Below are positions 2,795-54,889 of a stretch of 64,000 nucleotides of DNA, one piece after another. The translations under genes and the position numbers were made by a program. This stretch comes from Bacteroidales bacterium (GTDB lineage Bacteria; Bacteroidota; Bacteroidia; Bacteroidales; UBA932). The first letter of the stretch is position 1; each line of letters begins with the position of its first letter. The stretch spans positions 1 through 64,000 of the forward strand of contig JAEEQS010000005.1 of NCBI GenBank assembly GCA_016285455.1, written 5' to 3'. The notes below the pieces were generated by a model. The model searched no databases. It was not told where the DNA came from and saw nothing but the letters and a program-made list of their open reading frames with translations.

Positions 2795-5700
2795 ATGTTT
2801 ACAGAAGAAAGTTACGAGAATGCCTTGTTGGAGATGTTCTCCAATCTTGGATATGAAACTCTATATGGACCAGATGTAGAGAGAGATTATCAAGTGCCTT
2901 ATTATGAGGTTCAGTTGCGTCATTCTCTAAAGATGGTCAATCCGTCAAAGCCTGATGAGGCTTTGGAAGAGGCTTTCAGGAAGGTACGTGATATAGATAC
3001 AGGAAGTCTTGTGCAGAGGAACGAGAAATTCATGGACTATCTTCAGAATGGTGTGGAAGTGTCATATGAATATGCTGGAGAACAAAGGAATGACATTGTT
3101 TATTTGATTGATTATAAGAATACAGAGAGAAATACCTTTCAGGCAATTAATCAATGGACATTTGTAGAAAAGTCGGAAAAAAGAGCGGATATAATAGTTT
3201 TTGTGAATGGTTTGCCACTTGTTCTATGTGAGTTGAAATCACCATCCAGAGAAGAAACAGATGCATCTGATGCATATAAGCAAATCCGCAATTATATCCA
3301 GGAGATTCCTTCAATGTTTGTTTATAATGCTTTTTGCGTAATGAGTGATCTTGCGCTATCGAAGGCCGGAACAATTACAAGCAATGAGGATAGATTCATG
3401 GAATGGAAAACAGCAGACGGAAAGACTGAGGATCAAACGCTGTTATCTTATGACACGTTTTTTACCGGTATGTTTAGGAGAGACAGATTTTTAGATCTTA
3501 TTAAGAACTTTATCTGTTATAGTTGTGATGAGGGGAACGATGCTAAAATACTTGCAGGATATCACCAGTATTTTGCCGTTAGGAAGGCCATTGAAAGAAC
3601 TTTAAAAGCCACATATAGCGATGGTAAAATTGGAGTGTTCTGGCACACTCAGGGTAGCGGAAAATCCTTGTCTATGGTTTTCTATGCCCATCTTATTCAA
3701 ACAGTACTAGATAAGCCAACGATTGTTGTTATAACGGACAGAAATGATTTGGATGATCAGCTTTTCTCTCAGTTTTCTAAGTGTTCGTCGTTCTTGCATC
3801 AGATACCGGTTCAAGCTACTAGCCGAGAGAATTTGAAGGAGTTGCTGATAGGAAGGGAGGCCAATGGCATTATTTTCACAACAATGCAGAAGTTCACAGA
3901 ATCAGATGATTCCTTGTCAGATCGCAGAAACATTGTTGTGATTACCGACGAGGCACATAGGGGGCAGTATGGTTTTGAAGAGAAGATAAATGAACAAGGT
4001 AAGGTTAGCATTGGCATGGCAAGGATGATACATGATTCATTGCCCAATGCTTCTTATATCGGATTTACAGGAACTCCAATTTCCAAGAAAGATAAAGATA
4101 CTCAGGAGGTTTTTGGAAATTATATAGATATATACGACATGACTCGTGCTGTAAATGATGGTGCAACTTGTCCAATTTATTACGAGTCGCGTGTGGTAAA
4201 TCTAAAGCTTGATGAAAAGACTGTAAAAGAGATAGATGAGGAGTATGAGAGATTGGCAGAAGAGGGGGCAACACGTGAGCAGATAGAAAAGAGTATGCAT
4301 GAAATGTCTCATCTTGAGGAAATACTTGGCGCTCTAGAAACTATAGATTCGTTGGTTTGCGATATAATTAAGCACTATGAAGAAAATCGTCAGCAAGAAT
4401 TAACAGGAAAGGCGATGATAGTGGCTTATTCTCGTCCTATTGCAATTAAGATTTACCAGAGGATTTTAGAGCTGAGACCAGAGTGGACAGAGAAGGTTAA
4501 AGTAGTTATGACTGGTGCGAACAACGATCCAGAGGAGTGGCATGAAATAGTTGGCAATAAGTTTTATAAGAAGGAACTGGCTAAGAAATTCAAGGATGAT
4601 AATGATCCTTTGAAGATTGCAATTGTGGTGGATATGTGGCTGACAGGATTTGATGTTCCATCTTTGGCCACGATGTATGTTTATAAGCCTATGTCCGGCC
4701 ATAATCTTATGCAGGCGATAGCTCGTGTTAATAGAGTTTTTGCAGGAAAAGCAGGTGGCTTGGTTGTAGACTATATTGGCATAGCAAAGGCTCTCAAAGA
4801 AGCTATGCGTGATTATACAATTCAGGATCAGAAGAACTATGGTAATCCGGATATCAAAGAAACAGCATTAGTCAAGTTTAGGGAGAAGCTTGAGATTTGC
4901 AGAGACTTTATGCACGGCTTCGATTATTCTAATTTCAGAAAAGGATCTGATGCTGATAGAGCTGCAATAATCAAAGGTGCTGTTAACTTCTTGCTTGATC
5001 CATCCAAGGAAGAAGCTATTTCAAGTTTCTTAAAAGAAGCTTTGTTGTTGAAAAATGCTGTTAGTCTTTGCCGAAGTCTTCTTAATGAGGACCAGCGCTT
5101 TGAAGCTGCATTCTTTGAGACGACTAGAACAATGATTAATAGAATCAAGAACGTAAAGGCACCAGTCTCTAAGAAAGAAATTAACGAAAGGATAGGAGAA
5201 TTGCTGAAGCAGAGTATAAAGAGCGAAGGCGTCTTGAACTTATTCTCGGATGTTAAGGCTGAGTTCTCATTATTTGATGCTTCTTTCTTGGAAGAAATTG
5301 CCAAGATGAAAGAAAAGAATATTGCCATAGAGTTATTGAAAAAACTATTGAAAGAGAGGGTTCATTTGTATGGCAGAACAAATCTTGTCCAGTCTCAGAA
5401 ATTCTCTGAATTGCTTAATATGTCGTTGTCAAATTATCTTAAAGGCCTGTTGACTAATGAAGAGGTAATCAAAGAGTTACTTGATTTGGCAAAAGAAATA
5501 GCAAAGAATGAATCTGAGGCGGATAGCTTAGGGCTTAATCAGGAAGAAAAGGCTTTCTATGATGCTTTGACCCGACCAAAAGCTGTCAAAGATTTCTATA
5601 CAAATGAACAGCTTGTTCAGATTACTAAGGAATTGACAGAAGCTCTCCGTAAGAACCGAACAATAGATTGGCAGAAGAAAGAATCTGCAAGGGCCGGTAT

Positions 5701-5836
5701 GAGACGAATAGTCAAGAGACTTCTTAAGAAGTATAAATATCCACCAGAGGAAGAGCAGAATGCATTGGACACTGTAATCAAGCAGTGCGAGCAGTGGGCT
5801 GATGTGGATGAAAGTGAATATATTAACTACGAATAG
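2795..5836 (+). CDS. hsdR: Type I restriction endonuclease subunit R
   Basis: 1013 aa; Walker A HTQGSGKS, VITDEAHRGQYG (DEAH), GFTGTPI and a PD-(D/E)xK-like N-terminal region (ADIIVFVNGLPLVLCELKSP). Confidence 0.95.
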   Translation: MFTEESYENALLEMFSNLGYETLYGPDVERDYQVPYYEVQLRHSLKMVNPSKPDEALEEAFRKVRDIDTGSLVQRNEKFMDYLQNGVEVSYEYAGEQRNDIVYLIDYKNTERNTFQAINQWTFVEKSEKRADIIVFVNGLPLVLCELKSPSREETDASDAYKQIRNYIQEIPSMFVYNAFCVMSDLALSKAGTITSNEDRFMEWKTADGKTEDQTLLSYDTFFTGMFRRDRFLDLIKNFICYSCDEGNDAKILAGYHQYFAVRKAIERTLKATYSDGKIGVFWHTQGSGKSLSMVFYAHLIQTVLDKPTIVVITDRNDLDDQLFSQFSKCSSFLHQIPVQATSRENLKELLIGREANGIIFTTMQKFTESDDSLSDRRNIVVITDEAHRGQYGFEEKINEQGKVSIGMARMIHDSLPNASYIGFTGTPISKKDKDTQEVFGNYIDIYDMTRAVNDGATCPIYYESRVVNLKLDEKTVKEIDEEYERLAEEGATREQIEKSMHEMSHLEEILGALETIDSLVCDIIKHYEENRQQELTGKAMIVAYSRPIAIKIYQRILELRPEWTEKVKVVMTGANNDPEEWHEIVGNKFYKKELAKKFKDDNDPLKIAIVVDMWLTGFDVPSLATMYVYKPMSGHNLMQAIARVNRVFAGKAGGLVVDYIGIAKALKEAMRDYTIQDQKNYGNPDIKETALVKFREKLEICRDFMHGFDYSNFRKGSDADRAAIIKGAVNFLLDPSKEEAISSFLKEALLLKNAVSLCRSLLNEDQRFEAAFFETTRTMINRIKNVKAPVSKKEINERIGELLKQSIKSEGVLNLFSDVKAEFSLFDASFLEEIAKMKEKNIAIELLKKLLKERVHLYGRTNLVQSQKFSELLNMSLSNYLKGLLTNEEVIKELLDLAKEIAKNESEADSLGLNQEEKAFYDALTRPKAVKDFYTNEQLVQITKELTEALRKNRTIDWQKKESARAGMRRIVKRLLKKYKYPPEEEQNALDTVIKQCEQWADVDESEYINYE

Positions 5837-48777: not shown

Positions 48778-50091
48778 ATGGCAGTTTCAAGAAGAAAACA
48801 ACTCTTTCCTGAAGTTACTGACGCCCAGTGGAACGACTGGAAGTGGCAGGTAAGAAACAGGATTGAGACTCTTGACAAGCTCAAGAAATACATCAAGCTT
48901 TCCAAGGAGGAGGAAGCCGGAATCCGCGAGAGCCTCAAGACTCTGCGAATGGCCATTACTCCTTACTACCTGAGCCTTATAGATCCAAACAACCCTGAGG
49001 ACCCTGTAAGGAAGCAGTGCATTCCTACAATCCGCGAGACTCATCAGGCTAGCGCAGACCTTCTGGACCCTCTTCACGAGGATACAGACTCTCCTGTTCC
49101 AGGCCTTACTCATCGTTATCCGGACAGAGTGCTTCTGCTTATAACTGACATGTGCTCAATGTATTGCCGCCATTGCACCAGAAGAAGGTTTGCCGGCCAG
49201 AAAGACGCCGCCACCTCTATGGACAATGTTGAGAAGGCTATCGAGTATATAAAGAACACTCCACAGGTCAGAGACGTGCTGCTTTCCGGCGGTGACGCTC
49301 TGATGGTTCCAGACGAGAGGCTCGAGTACATAATCAGCAAGATCCGTAAGATCAAACACGTGGAAATCATTAGGCTGGGAACCAGAACTCCTGTTGTATG
49401 TCCTCAGAGAATTACTCCTGAGCTCTGCAACATGCTCAAGAAGTACCATCCAATCTGGCTTAACACCCACTTCAATCATCCTCAGGAAGTTACAGAGGAA
49501 AGCGCAGCAGCCTGCGCAAGGCTGGCAGACGCTGGCGTTCCACTTGGCAACCAGTCTGTTCTGCTTCGCGGAGTTAACGACTGCGTGAACATTATGAAGA
49601 AGCTGGTTCACGAGCTTGTTAAGATGAGAGTAAGACCTTATTACATCTACCAGTGCGACCTTTCACTCGGTCTGGAGCATTTCCGCACCCCGGTTTCCAA
49701 GGGCATCGAGATTATCGAGGGTCTGAGGGGCCATACCAGCGGATACGCTGTTCCAACCTTTGTGGTAGATGCTCCTGGCGGAGGCGGAAAGACTCCTGTA
49801 ATGCCTAATTACGTTATTTCCCAGGCTCCTGGAAAGGTAGTTCTGAGAAACTACGAGGGCGTTATTACAACTTATTCAGAGCCAGAGGACTACAAATTTG
49901 AGTGCAACTGCAAATTCTGCAAGGAGAACAAGGAGTGTGAGGGCGTTGTTTCTCTTCTGGAGGGCAAGGCAATGACTATCCAGCCAGCTCATCTTGCAAG
50001 AGAAGACAGGGCTGTAAAGTACCGCGCAAAGATGGCCAAGAAGGCTCCTGCCAAGAAGCCTGCAGCCAAGAAAGTTGCAAAGAAAAAGTAA
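48778..50091 (+). CDS. kamA: Lysine 2,3-aminomutase (radical SAM)
   Basis: DMCSMYCRHCTRRRF (CxxxCxxC), HTSGYAVPTFVVDAPGGGGKTPVMPNYV, C-terminal CNCKFC; lysine/alanine-rich tail. Confidence 0.97.
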   Translation: MAVSRRKQLFPEVTDAQWNDWKWQVRNRIETLDKLKKYIKLSKEEEAGIRESLKTLRMAITPYYLSLIDPNNPEDPVRKQCIPTIRETHQASADLLDPLHEDTDSPVPGLTHRYPDRVLLLITDMCSMYCRHCTRRRFAGQKDAATSMDNVEKAIEYIKNTPQVRDVLLSGGDALMVPDERLEYIISKIRKIKHVEIIRLGTRTPVVCPQRITPELCNMLKKYHPIWLNTHFNHPQEVTEESAAACARLADAGVPLGNQSVLLRGVNDCVNIMKKLVHELVKMRVRPYYIYQCDLSLGLEHFRTPVSKGIEIIEGLRGHTSGYAVPTFVVDAPGGGGKTPVMPNYVISQAPGKVVLRNYEGVITTYSEPEDYKFECNCKFCKENKECEGVVSLLEGKAMTIQPAHLAREDRAVKYRAKMAKKAPAKKPAAKKVAKKK

Positions 50092-50102
50092 GACACTCGG
50101 CG

Positions 50103-51119
50103 ATGTCTTTCATCAGTGATATACTCAAATTCAAGAGCCTGTCTATTGTAGGGCTGGAGAAGAACACTGGAAAGACAGTATGCCTGAATTTTATCCTGGA
50201 CAGGTTACCGTCCGCCTGCCGCGTGGCGGTAACCTCGATCGGGATAGACGGGGAGAGTAAGGATCAGGTGACCGGAACGGCCAAGCCTGAGATAATACTC
50301 AAGGAAGGAACCATTTTCTCGACTTCAGAAGTCTTTTATGCCCGCAGGCGGGTTTTAAGCGAGCTTCTGGAGATCACTTCCGAGAGAAGTTCATTGGGCA
50401 GGATAGTTACTGCCCGGGTACTTAGAGGGGGAAAGGTTCTGCTGAGCGGGCCTTCATCTGCGCAGTCTCTGGCAAGATGGGCCAGTGGCGTGGAAAAGTT
50501 CAGTCCGGACCTTACGATTGTAGATGGAGCGCTTTCCAGGCTGAGTAGCGCATCTCCCGTAATTAGTGAAAGCCTGGTACTTACAACGGGAGCGGCCTAT
50601 TCGGTTGATATGGCAACGCTGGTAAGGAGGACAAAGTTCATAGTGGAACTGGTGCGGCTGGAAAGGGCAGATGAAGCGGTCTGCCGGAAGTTTGAAGGGC
50701 TGGAAAAAGGAGTGTGGGGAATAGATTCTGACGGAAATCTGATTGATTTCCACGTGGAGTCTTCCCTGGCAATTGATAAGATCAAAGATGATGTGACGGG
50801 GAGGAGCGTGGCGGTATTTGCTGCAGGAGCTTTGACAGACAGGTTCCTGGGGATGATCTCCGATTCCAAGAGGGTGAAGGAGATAGATCTGATGGTGACA
50901 GACTTCACCAAAATATTCGTCTCTGAAGAAGCCTACAGGGTTTTCCTGAAAAAGGGAGGTCATCTGAAGGTTCTCAGAAAGAGCAAGCTGATTGCAGTTT
51001 GCGTAAATCCGACAAGCCCGAGAGGATTTGTGCTTGATTCGGATGTGCTGTGCGAGAAAATGAGACAGGCGGTAGGAGTGCCTGTATATGATATAGTAAA
51101 GAACAGAGAAACAATTTGA
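50103..51119 (+). CDS. kamB: KamB-like protein with P-loop-like N-terminus, function unassigned
   Basis: SIVGLEKNTGKTVCLNFILDRL Walker-A-like; position between kamA and kamD. Confidence 0.6.
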   Translation: MSFISDILKFKSLSIVGLEKNTGKTVCLNFILDRLPSACRVAVTSIGIDGESKDQVTGTAKPEIILKEGTIFSTSEVFYARRRVLSELLEITSERSSLGRIVTARVLRGGKVLLSGPSSAQSLARWASGVEKFSPDLTIVDGALSRLSSASPVISESLVLTTGAAYSVDMATLVRRTKFIVELVRLERADEAVCRKFEGLEKGVWGIDSDGNLIDFHVESSLAIDKIKDDVTGRSVAVFAAGALTDRFLGMISDSKRVKEIDLMVTDFTKIFVSEEAYRVFLKKGGHLKVLRKSKLIAVCVNPTSPRGFVLDSDVLCEKMRQAVGVPVYDIVKNRETI

Positions 51120-51120
51120 T

Positions 51121-52533
51121 ATGCTGTTTAGAGAGTGCCTTGACATACCGTGCGGAATAAGGTTTATGTTCGACGACCTGCAGCTGCAGTCTGCCTGCGG
51201 CCGCACACGTCTGCTGCATTCTCCTATGATGCAGACCAGAGAGGATGTAGAGAAGGCGTACAAGACGCTAGGAGATTGCTACAAAACTCTTTACAGCAAT
51301 ACCACTCCGCAGGTTTCTTCTTCTCTGGCGGCTCTGAAGCACAGGCTTATGTGCCTTAGAGACATAACCGGCACGCTGGACAGGCTCTCCAGAGATGTGG
51401 TGCTGGATGACGTGGATCTGTTCGAGATAAAGTACGTAGGGCTGTTAGCCGGCCACGTAAGCGAAGGGGTGAAGGCTTTAGGACTAGATGGCGTAGAGAT
51501 TCCAGATATGGAAAAAGTGGTTTCCATACTGGATCCTGAGGGAATGAAGATAGAGAGCTTCTACGTGTATGACATTTATTCCAAGGAACTTGGAAGGATT
51601 AGGGCAGATATAAAGAAGCTCCAGGGGCTTAGTCCTGATGTTTCCGTAACCTCAGACAGGCTGCTGGAACTCATAGAGAAGGAAAGGCTTCTGGAAAGAG
51701 ATATCAGGGAGAACCTGAGCCATCTTCTTAAGAATCATATCGCTGAGATAAGGCAGGCCATAGACGCAATGGGAGATTTGGACGTTCTCCTTGCAAAGTG
51801 CTTGCAAATGAAGATGATGGGGCTTTGCATCCCAGTTGTTTCAGAGGATTCCGAAACTGAGTACAATGGAATGTTCCATCCGTTCATTGTGCACGTGTAT
51901 GAGAATCAGGCGGCCCTAGGCGGAAAGAAGAAGCAGTTCCAGCCAGTGGATCTCAGATTTGGACTGGAGAGCGTGACGATAATAGGGGCCAATATGGGCG
52001 GAAAGAGCGTGGTGCTGAAGATGGCAGCCCTTAACCAGCTGCTGTTCCAGTTCGGCTTCGGAGTGGCTGCGCAAAGCGCAAAGATTGATATTAAGGAAGA
52101 TATTAGGGTTTGCATCGGCGACGACCAGGATCTGTCATCCGGCCTTTCCTCTTTTGCGGGAGAAGTGAAGGCAATAGACAATGTTCTCAGGGGAATGCGG
52201 ACGGGAAGCCGTATGCTGGCCCTGATAGACGAGCCGGCCAGAACCACCAATCCGATTGAGGGTACGGCACTTGTGCAGGCTCTACTGGACATATTGAAAG
52301 ATAGGAGGATATCCGTACTTATGACCACTCACTACAATGTTCCGGGAGACTTCTTTAGAAGGCTGAAGGTCCGCGGGCTTGTAGAGGGCAAGATGGATTA
52401 CTCCCTGATGGAGACCGTGGAAGGGGAGATTCCGCACGAGGCCATTAACGTGGCCCGCAGCCTGGATATAGATCCGCTGTGGCTGGATGAAGCAGAGAAA
52501 ATATTGGCAAAAGAAGATATTGGTAATAACTAA
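51121..52533 (+). CDS. kamC: MutS-like ATPase (KamC), no N-terminal mismatch-recognition domain evident
   Basis: SVTIIGANMGGKSVVLKMAALNQLL (Walker A), MLALIDEPARTTNPIEGTALVQALLD (Walker B region), VLMTTHYN. Confidence 0.75.
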   Translation: MLFRECLDIPCGIRFMFDDLQLQSACGRTRLLHSPMMQTREDVEKAYKTLGDCYKTLYSNTTPQVSSSLAALKHRLMCLRDITGTLDRLSRDVVLDDVDLFEIKYVGLLAGHVSEGVKALGLDGVEIPDMEKVVSILDPEGMKIESFYVYDIYSKELGRIRADIKKLQGLSPDVSVTSDRLLELIEKERLLERDIRENLSHLLKNHIAEIRQAIDAMGDLDVLLAKCLQMKMMGLCIPVVSEDSETEYNGMFHPFIVHVYENQAALGGKKKQFQPVDLRFGLESVTIIGANMGGKSVVLKMAALNQLLFQFGFGVAAQSAKIDIKEDIRVCIGDDQDLSSGLSSFAGEVKAIDNVLRGMRTGSRMLALIDEPARTTNPIEGTALVQALLDILKDRRISVLMTTHYNVPGDFFRRLKVRGLVEGKMDYSLMETVEGEIPHEAINVARSLDIDPLWLDEAEKILAKEDIGNN

Positions 52534-52538
52534 TTAAT

Positions 52539-54098
52539 ATGCAGAGTAAAGTAGGTTTAGATTTTGAAAAAGTCGCCTTGGCCAAATCCTTGGCAGAGAA
52601 GGTTGCGGTTGAGGTTCAGGCTTTTGTGGAGCGCTATACTACTGTAGCTACGGAAAGGACCATTGCCCGCGCCCTAGGCATAGACGGCGTGGACGAGAGT
52701 GCCGTCCCGCTTCCTAACGTTCTGGTAGAGCAGCTCAAGGAGAAAGGAGTGCTTTCGCAGGGAGTGATGTTCTACATCGCCAACGCGATGCTCAGCACGG
52801 GGCTTTCTCCTCAGCAGATTGCTGAAAAGATTGCTAACGAAGGCTTCGATGTCACAAAGGAGGCCAAGGTTACAGATCCAGTTAAGCTTCAGGCTGTTGT
52901 GCAGCCTGTTATAGACGCTACGATAGAGAGGATCAGAAATAACCGCCTCCGCCGTGAAAAGTACGTGGCAGAATACGGAGAAGACCGCGCCCGCCCATAC
53001 ATCTACGTGATTGTGGCTACGGGTAACATCTACGAGGATGTGGTTCAGGCCCAGGCCGCCGCAAGACAGGGAGCAGACATCATTGCCGTTATCCGAACCA
53101 CTGGCCAGAGCCTTCTGGACTATGTGCCTTACGGAGCCACCACCGAGGGATTCGGCGGAACCTTCGCCACCCAGGAGAACTTCCGCATCATGCGCAAGGC
53201 CCTGGACGAGGTAGGTGAGGAGCTTCACCGGTATATCCGCCTTTGCAACTACTGCTCAGGACTTTGCATGCCTGAAATCGCGATTATGGGAGCCCTCGAG
53301 GGACTGGACGTTATGCTCAACGATGCCCTTTATGGAATCCTCTTCCGCGACATCAACATGCAGCGTACCCTGATCGACCAGTATTTCTCCAGAATCATCA
53401 ACGGCTTTGCCGGCGTTATAATCAACACCGGTGAGGACAACTACCTCACCACCGCAGACGCCATCGAGGCGGCTCACACCGTGCTGGCTTCAGACCTTAT
53501 CAACGAGCAGCTTGCTCTGTTTGCCGGACTGCCTGAAGAGCAGATGGGTCTTGGCCACGCATTCGAGATGGATCCTATGCACAAGAACGGATTCCTTCTG
53601 GAACTGGCTCAGGCACAGATGACAAGAGAGATCTTCCCTAAGGCTCCGCTGAAGTATATGCCGCCTACCAAGTTTATGACGGGCAACATCTTCAGGGGCC
53701 ACATCCAGGATGCTCTCTTTAATATTATAGGTATATGGACACACCAGGGCCTTCAGCTTCTGGGTATGCCTACCGAGGCAATCCATACGCCATTCATGAG
53801 CGACCGTTTCCTCTCCATCGAGAACGCCAACTACATTTTCAACAACCTCCACGACATCGGAGACGAAGTTGAATTCAAGGAAGGCGGAATTATCCGCAGC
53901 CGCGCCAAGGAAGTTCTGGACAACGCCATCAACCTGCTTCAGGAAATGACCTCCGAAGGTCTTTTCAACACCCTGGAACAGGGCAAGTTCGGCGATGTAA
54001 AACGTCCTAAGAACGGCGGCAAGGGTCTTGACGGCGTAACCGAGAAGGGAGCAAATTATATGAATCCGTTTATTGAACTTATGAAAGGGAGGAAATAG
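52539..54098 (+). CDS. kamD: D-lysine/beta-lysine 5,6-aminomutase alpha subunit
   Basis: ERTIARALGIDGVDE, TTGQSLLDYVPYGATTEGFGGTFATQENFRIMRKALDEV, followed by kamE. Confidence 0.95.
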   Translation: MQSKVGLDFEKVALAKSLAEKVAVEVQAFVERYTTVATERTIARALGIDGVDESAVPLPNVLVEQLKEKGVLSQGVMFYIANAMLSTGLSPQQIAEKIANEGFDVTKEAKVTDPVKLQAVVQPVIDATIERIRNNRLRREKYVAEYGEDRARPYIYVIVATGNIYEDVVQAQAAARQGADIIAVIRTTGQSLLDYVPYGATTEGFGGTFATQENFRIMRKALDEVGEELHRYIRLCNYCSGLCMPEIAIMGALEGLDVMLNDALYGILFRDINMQRTLIDQYFSRIINGFAGVIINTGEDNYLTTADAIEAAHTVLASDLINEQLALFAGLPEEQMGLGHAFEMDPMHKNGFLLELAQAQMTREIFPKAPLKYMPPTKFMTGNIFRGHIQDALFNIIGIWTHQGLQLLGMPTEAIHTPFMSDRFLSIENANYIFNNLHDIGDEVEFKEGGIIRSRAKEVLDNAINLLQEMTSEGLFNTLEQGKFGDVKRPKNGGKGLDGVTEKGANYMNPFIELMKGRK

Positions 54099-54100
54099 AT

Positions 54101-54889
54101 ATGAGTGAAGGTTTATATTCAATGGAGGCCAAGAATTACGACAAGACTCTTGACCTGAAGAAAGTAAAGCCGTACGGAGACACTATGAACGACGGCAAGG
54201 TGCAGCTGAGTTTCACCCTCCCTGTTCCGGCCGGTCCGGAAGCCATCGAGGCCGCTAAGCAGCTGCTCAAGAAGATGGGCTTCGAGAATCCTCTGGTAGT
54301 GTTCTCTCAGGAGCTGACTCCTGGCTTCACCTTCTTCAACTGCTACGGAAGCAGCACCATGACAGTTAATTACGCAGATATCTATGTGCCTAAGGTTGAG
54401 TCCAAGACTATGAGTATGGAGGCTACGGACGAGTTCATACAGGAGAAGATCGGCCGTCCTCTGGTGGTGGTTGGAGCCAGCACCGGAACCGATGCCCATA
54501 CGGTAGGTATCGACGCCATAATGAACATGAAGGGCTATGCCGGACATTACGGCCTGGAGCGTTACAAGATGATAGAGGCCTACAACCTGGGAAGCCAGGT
54601 TCCTAACGAGGAGTTCCTGGCCAGGGCCATCGAGCTCAAGGCCGACGCCCTGCTCGTAAGCCAGACTGTTACGCAGAAAGACGTTCACATCCAGAACCTT
54701 ACCAACCTTATCGAGTTGATGGACGCTGAAGGTCTCCGCGACAAGATGATAGTGGTTTGCGGCGGTGCCCGTATCAGCCACGAGCTGGCCAAGGAGCTTG
54801 GATATGACGCCGGATTCGGCACCAACACCTATGCCGATGACGTGGCAAGCTTCATCGCTGAGGAATTTGTAAAGAGACACAATAAGTAA
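54101..54889 (+). CDS. kamE: D-lysine/beta-lysine 5,6-aminomutase beta subunit (B12-binding)
   Basis: GASTGTDAHTVGIDAIMNMKG (DxHxxG cobalamin motif), GGARISHELAKELGYDAGFG. Confidence 0.96.
   Translation: MSEGLYSMEAKNYDKTLDLKKVKPYGDTMNDGKVQLSFTLPVPAGPEAIEAAKQLLKKMGFENPLVVFSQELTPGFTFFNCYGSSTMTVNYADIYVPKVESKTMSMEATDEFIQEKIGRPLVVVGASTGTDAHTVGIDAIMNMKGYAGHYGLERYKMIEAYNLGSQVPNEEFLARAIELKADALLVSQTVTQKDVHIQNLTNLIELMDAEGLRDKMIVVCGGARISHELAKELGYDAGFGTNTYADDVASFIAEEFVKRHNK

Follow-up and report, generated by a model that had tools for sequence, protein, structure and literature searches.

KamB and KamC in a Bacteroidales lysine fermentation cluster: a P-loop protein and a clamp-less MutS2-like ATPase as a probable accessory system of lysine 5,6-aminomutase

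The window analysed here, a stretch of 64 000 nt from contig JAEEQS010000005.1 of a Bacteroidales bacterium, carries five kam genes head to tail on the + strand, the strand on which all motifs given below also lie. The first, kamA (48778..50091), encodes the radical-SAM enzyme lysine 2,3-aminomutase (TIGR03820, 632.9 bits, cut-off 525.4) and is the upstream neighbour of the two genes considered in this study. These are kamB (50103..51119), encoding a P-loop accessory protein of 338 aa (NF052386, 331.9 bits, cut-off 210), and kamC (51121..52533), encoding a MutS2-like ATPase of 470 aa without a clamp (NF052383, 365.1 bits, cut-off 300). They are followed by kamD (52539..54098) and kamE (54101..54889), encoding the alpha subunit of lysine 5,6-aminomutase (NF052384, 900 bits, cut-off 600; PF09043) and its beta subunit with the B12 domain (NF052385, 406.6 bits, cut-off 280; PF02310 and PF16554). 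The intergenic gaps of 11, 1, 5 and 2 nt bear out the tight coupling of kamB and kamC between kamA and kamDE that a previous reading of this DNA, made from the sequence only, had described. Judged by their own sequences and the published pathway, the upstream flank reads as atoD, kal, kce and kdd and the downstream flank as atoA, an acyl-CoA dehydrogenase gene and etfBA, and the locus with its flanks is a lysine-to-butyrate fermentation cluster. Both kamB and kamC were found to be under strong purifying selection, with a dN/dS of ~0.05 against two near relatives (~0.057 for kamB). Far upstream in the window, an apparent type I restriction specificity fragment (118-693), a DUF262-like ORF (714-2792) and an HsdR-like ORF (2795-5836) were recognized by eye.

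The pair belongs to known families. KamB of the window scores above the cut-off of the NCBIfam equivalog NF052386, ‘lysine 5,6-aminomutase reactivase subunit KamB’, and covers the whole model (1-326 of 326), and KamC scores above that of NF052383, ‘lysine 5,6-aminomutase reactivase ATPase KamC’, which it covers in two stretches (model positions 2-157 and 209-508); both occupy the operon place expected of members and show no difference from the families. The reactivase idea is not original to our study, because this curated annotation already states it; the reactivase name is a curated label. A literature search on the function of KamB and KamC or on the reactivase found no study, a sequence search found no solved structure of either protein, and in a 2011 paper the gene in lysine clusters was drawn only as ‘MutS family protein’ (PMC3149608). 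The newer element of our study is a clade of KamB-like proteins with a single-chain aminomutase-like partner, described below, more than the window pair itself.

KamC contains all the MutS-type motifs that the sequence-only reading had listed, and the invariance of their residues was counted over 72 KamC homologues. Walker A, GANMGGKS (residues 289-296; 51985..52008), has G289, N291, M292, G293, G294 and K295 invariant; in the Walker B region, LIDEPARTTNP (residues 368-378; 52222..52254), D370, E371, P372, A373, T376, N377 and P378 are invariant, as are T403, H404 and Y405 of TTHY (residues 402-405; 52324..52335). MutS domain V was the only Pfam domain above its cut-off (PF00488, 71.3 bits), domain III remaining below threshold, and the scan gave no domain I (mismatch), domain II (connector) or Smr domain in a protein that ends at residue 470, which agrees with the earlier statement that the mismatch-binding N-terminal domain is missing. 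The AlphaFold2 model (mean pLDDT 89.7) was matched by Foldseek to the cores of MutS2 and MutS (E ~1e-17 to 3e-23, TM ~0.7), with which KamC has the ATPase domain V and the core/lever fold in common. Between the LDP motif and Walker A, KamC has 136 residues (the median over 68 proteins, with a range of 135-155) and MutS2 has 199-204, so the clamp insert of ~55-65 residues is absent by this comparison, and the earlier wording ‘MutS clamp ATPase’ was wrong. KamC is a MutS2-like core from which the DNA clamp has been lost, with no mismatch or Smr domain. Its residues 137-157 (LDPEG...FYVYDIYSKEL; 51529..51591), with L137, D138, P139, F147, Y150, Y153 and L157 invariant, form the stretch after which MutS2 carries the clamp; the aromatic motif here is specific to KamC and is a possible partner-binding site.

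Because KamC is homologous, by sequence as well as by fold, to MutS and MutS2, one might ask whether it functions with KamB in DNA repair or recombination and lies in the operon only by chance. However, besides lacking domains I and II, clamp and Smr, KamC scores far below the family cut-offs (152.8 versus 400 for mutS2, and 91.6 versus 641.7 for mutS1), the source genome already encodes its own full-length MutS1 (886 aa) and MutS2 (828 aa) elsewhere, and KamC co-occurs strictly with KamD even where the genes are unlinked. A repair gene was rejected on the missing domains and this co-occurrence, and we regard it as extremely improbable. Genomes with KamC keep separate MutS1 and MutS2, and in a tree of the ATPase region KamC stood apart from both, and the support for a single KamC clade was weak (90/48). 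The isoelectric point is uninformative on DNA binding, because KamC is acidic (median 5.1) and so is MutS1 (5.5).

KamB has the Walker-A-like sequence GLEKNTGKT, also noted in the sequence-only reading, at residues 17-25 (50151..50177), where G17, K20, N21, G23, K24 and T25 are invariant in 70 KamB homologues and also across KamB and the KamB-like proteins. The DG of a Walker-B-like motif, D141-G142-A-L-S-R146 (50523..50540), is likewise invariant in the 70 homologues, and D141, G142 and R146 were invariant in 18 of 18 aligned rows that included KamB-like, Fusobacterium and Acetoanaerobium proteins. In all, 24 residues stay the same in KamB and in its distant relatives alike, among them the P-loop, a GxDGExxD motif, D141-G142 and N302-P303. 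The nucleotide-binding motifs of both proteins are thus intact, the Walker motifs being invariant in the 70 KamB and the 72 KamC sequences. On its AlphaFold2 model (mean pLDDT 85.3), KamB weakly resembles SIMIBI P-loop NTPases: the best fold matches were of this class (Get3, ParA, MinD-like, MeaB, HypB, MobB and the IcmF G domain), none fell below an E value of 1e-3 and, because all of them are weak, SIMIBI is to be read as an inferred class and not as family membership. Searching the PDB by sequence returned noise only. A profile search matched cyclic 2,3-diphosphoglycerate synthetase weakly (E 0.36); this match recurred, again weakly, at rank 15 of the fold search and was not used. A scan of IMG/VR gave no KamB relative.

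MeaB/MMAA-type proteins gate the delivery of cofactor to methylmalonyl-CoA mutase. The job of KamB is likely to be similar to that of these proteins and of the IcmF G domain, although the fold likeness is weak (MeaB at rank 28, IcmF at rank 48, E ~0.2-0.3), KamB has no Pfam match to the MeaB/ArgK G3E GTPases and differs from them in P-loop sequence and, unlike these GTPases, it would work beside a MutS-type ATPase. The appearance of MeaB, the IcmF G domain, HypB and MobB among the weak fold matches favours the main rival to a rescue function, in which KamB and KamC would be a cofactor-loading or maturation system that delivers or makes AdoCbl, or loads PLP, on new KamDE without rescuing spent enzyme. 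However, the Pfam scan of KamB gave no match to adenosyltransferases, and an own PduO-type adenosyltransferase was found elsewhere in 13 of the 14 genomes with KamD in our sample, so that KamB is not needed for AdoCbl synthesis and is disfavoured as the cobalamin adenosyltransferase of the cell. In the remaining genome (G429, 96 % complete) neither a PduO nor a BtuR adenosyltransferase was detected, which reflects either an assembly gap or another source of AdoCbl.

Co-occurrence was examined in 119 genomes of the same order, Bacteroidales, with one genome per genus. KamD was present in 14 of these, and KamB in exactly the same 14 and in none of the 105 genomes without KamD, an overlap of ~1e-18 by the hypergeometric distribution when shared ancestry is ignored. 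KamC exceeded its cut-off in 13 of the 14 (in the other, G400, a contig end interrupts the gene) and in none of the 11 KamD-negative Bacteroidales genomes that were checked for it. Wide occurrence of the pair without a 5,6-aminomutase, which the sequence-only reading had named as a refutation of its proposal, was therefore not observed; with the interrupted gene included, all 14 genomes with KamD have both. In G475 (10 contigs) and in G396, each of kamB, kamC and kamD has a contig to itself among the three, and kamABC lies apart from kamDE in G398 and G429. As the association is kept where the genes are unlinked, it is not due to operon hitch-hiking alone.

The same genomes bear upon whether KamB and KamC might instead serve KamA, the radical-SAM 2,3-aminomutase. 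In favour of this, kamB usually lies directly after kamA, and stays with kamA where kamDE is elsewhere (G475, G398 and G429). However, the comparison of kamDE genomes with kamA-only genomes that the sequence-only reading had proposed showed KamB to track KamD, and two genomes with KamA over its cut-off (G399 and G490) had neither KamD nor KamB, so KamB follows KamDE rather than KamA. Service to KamA is further disfavoured by G396, where kamB is away from kamA, and by the KamB-like proteins, which adjoin a B12 enzyme with no KamA; we consider it very improbable. In one locus of G396, whose kam genes are scattered, kamB is followed by a diaminopimelate-dehydrogenase-like ORF (L084:7992-9918), which is reminiscent of the KamB-like clusters and could be chance.

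The arrangement of the two genes is conserved as well. Directly adjacent kamB and kamC, in that order, were found in 72 of the 76 Bacteroidales loci with a readable kamB ORF (80 loci in all); of the four remaining kamB loci, L172 and L173 stop shortly beyond kamB, and L135 and L157 could not be assigned. Outside Bacteroidota, synteny was assessed in two genomes, and the order kamA-B-C-D-E was identical in both Fusobacterium vincentii and Acetoanaerobium noterae, which represent two other phyla. Both sequences (NZ_CP084075.1 and NZ_CP154629.1; circles of 2.1 and 2.6 Mb, respectively) are entered in PLSDB as plasmids, and by size and gene content they look like chromosomes filed as plasmids.

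Our study further revealed a KamB relative in seven Bacteroidota genomes without KamD, always after an unannotated protein of ~600 aa. The N-terminal B12 domain of this protein is closest to KamE (8t0v, E 2e-13) and OraE (3kow, E 6e-11), and its barrel shows a weak likeness to KamD (E 0.002), which suggests from sequence a single-chain B12 aminomutase-like enzyme with a KamD-like barrel. In a wider sample of 294 genomes of one class, including these seven, the KamB-like protein was found in 18; the ~600-aa protein, counted where it was complete or almost complete, was likewise found in 18, and 17 genomes had both. The two exceptions, G540 and G531, show a fragmentary ~600-aa match that lies at the end of a contig. 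No protein exceeded the KamC cut-off in any of the seven genomes, whose MutS-like proteins were limited to MutS1 and MutS2 except in G264, which has two further, shorter ones. In a phylogenetic tree a single branch separated the KamB-like proteins (100/100) from the KamB of lysine operons (100/100), among them those of Fusobacterium and Acetoanaerobium. Full-length KamB-like members score ~172-225 bits against NF052386, and two of them pass its cut-off of 210: L183 (G684:C114:4566-5552) with 225.1 bits and L184 (G538:C1:928999-929991) with 210.4 bits. The neighbour of both is the ~600-aa single-chain enzyme, and the name ‘lysine 5,6-aminomutase’ is probably wrong for them.

Also encoded in the KamB-like clusters are two enzymes, one diaminopimelate-dehydrogenase-like and one a PLP enzyme, together with a DUF6917 protein and a conserved protein of ~80 aa. 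In the cluster at L017:2790-9544, and also in L014, L015, L016, L018, L019 and L020, these genes, the single-chain enzyme gene (6720-8516 in L017) and the KamB-like gene are accompanied by that of a GntR-type regulator, recognized by eye. These unannotated Bacteroidota clusters look like an uncharacterized diamino-acid catabolic pathway, with a gene order parallel to that of the ornithine operon. The ~80-aa ORF before the single-chain enzyme was aligned with OraS as a candidate homologue and showed no convincing similarity.

Because KamB relatives in genomes without KamD adjoin another B12 aminomutase-like enzyme, a role for KamB with B12 aminomutases is strengthened. As the KamB-like protein stands beside this enzyme with neither KamC nor KamD (17 of 18), KamB appears to be a general aminomutase partner and KamC a KamDE-specific motor. 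An accessory gene beside such an enzyme also has precedent, because in the ornithine 4,5-aminomutase operon (G156), Ord-OrtA-OrtB-(OraS by position)-OraE-Or-4-Orr, the GlmL-related Or-4 follows directly after OraE. GlmL and Or-4, of glutamate and ornithine mutase, resemble KamB and KamC in adjoining a B12 aminomutase of the same superfamily, but are unrelated to them in sequence and are different proteins in the same operon place; NCBIfam and Pfam profile scans gave no match of KamB or KamC to an ASKHA-type (GlmL/DdrA/EutA) family. Within one enzyme superfamily there are three relatives with three helper arrangements, namely KamB with KamC, a KamB-like protein alone, and a GlmL relative. B12 aminomutases inactivate themselves and, to our knowledge, the two well-known kinds of B12-enzyme helper, the ASKHA-type proteins and the GTPase MeaB, do not cover lysine 5,6-aminomutase.

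It is established that lysine 5,6-aminomutase inactivates itself in turnover, its cob(II)alamin losing an electron and ending as cob(III)alamin (PMC3958899). According to the same paper and PMC9081730, the native enzyme is accompanied by an auxiliary protein, E2, of ~80 kDa, which is tied to ATP, activation and reactivation, is required for activation by ATP and is reported to have AdoCbl synthetase activity; recombinant KamDE, without E2, is active but suicidal and without the native ATP regulation, and OraS restores ATP regulation. As recombinant KamDE is active without them, KamB and KamC are dispensable for initial activity, and the result with OraS means that an ATP effect can arise otherwise than through this pair. 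KamB and KamC may be E2, which is likewise ATP-linked and acts on KamDE, and the two genes are syntenic in Acetoanaerobium, a genus that we take to include now the classic source of the enzyme, C. sticklandii. Their summed mass (89.4 kDa here and ~94 kDa in A. noterae) fits the ~80 kDa of E2 only roughly, however, and AdoCbl synthetase activity is predicted by neither sequence. The passages of PMC3958899 and PMC9081730 that were consulted gave no E2 peptide sequence and link E2 to no gene.

These accounts also bear upon two other explanations. For loading, the reported AdoCbl synthetase activity of E2 speaks in favour, whereas cobalamin-depleted recombinant KamDE is described as active in vitro without helpers; together with the PduO-type adenosyltransferases and the Pfam result, this leaves loading without rescue rather unlikely in our judgement, although loading and reactivation may be one activity. 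Alternatively, the pair could be an ATP-sensing allosteric regulator that tunes flux through KamDE to the energy charge with no exchange of cofactor, which would suit an ATP regulation that the same accounts give to the native enzyme via E2 and deny to recombinant KamDE. However, the full conservation of the nucleotide-binding motifs in two distinct NTPases points to work more than to sensing, and KamB-like proteins stand beside another enzyme where there is no KamC; a purely sensing function seems to us decidedly improbable.

Taken together, our data make it likely that lysine 5,6-aminomutase is served by an accessory (reactivase) complex of KamB and KamC that is driven by ATP. The reactivating or cofactor-loading function advanced in the sequence-only reading is supported by the co-occurrence of both proteins with KamD, by the pairing of KamB-like proteins with a B12 enzyme and by the NCBIfam names. 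What the data show directly are the genes and their motifs, the predicted folds, the co-occurrence, the synteny and the pairing of KamB-like proteins; reactivation itself, the exchange of cobalamin, the use of ATP and the formation of a complex are inferred. In the mechanism that we propose, KamC, a clamp-less MutS2-type ATPase, would grip inactivated KamDE and, by ATP-driven opening and closing, pry the B12 domain of KamE off the KamD barrel. KamB, as a SIMIBI-like P-loop protein partnering KamC, would recognize the B12 domain and gate the exit of damaged cobalamin and the entry of fresh AdoCbl. KamB would be the part common to other aminomutases, with KamC as the motor specific to KamDE.

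A broader reading, which we put forward tentatively and with less than even confidence, is that KamB typifies a general class of P-loop helper for B12 aminomutases of the KamDE/OraE type. Its clients would number two or more: lysine 5,6-aminomutase, for which KamB acts together with KamC, and the single-chain enzyme that combines an N-terminal B12 domain with a KamD-like barrel, for which it acts without KamC. In this combination KamC would be a clamp-stripped remodelling motor of the MutS2 type, and KamB and KamC together would be E2.

In summary, if KamC acts as proposed, the fold of MutS would have been put to an unusual use, in the service of a metabolic enzyme, and KamB and KamC could give a gene to an ATP-dependent activator that has been known for decades. 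To learn the role of KamB, the KamB-like clade provides a simpler system that lacks KamC, and its clusters point to an uncharacterized aminomutase pathway.
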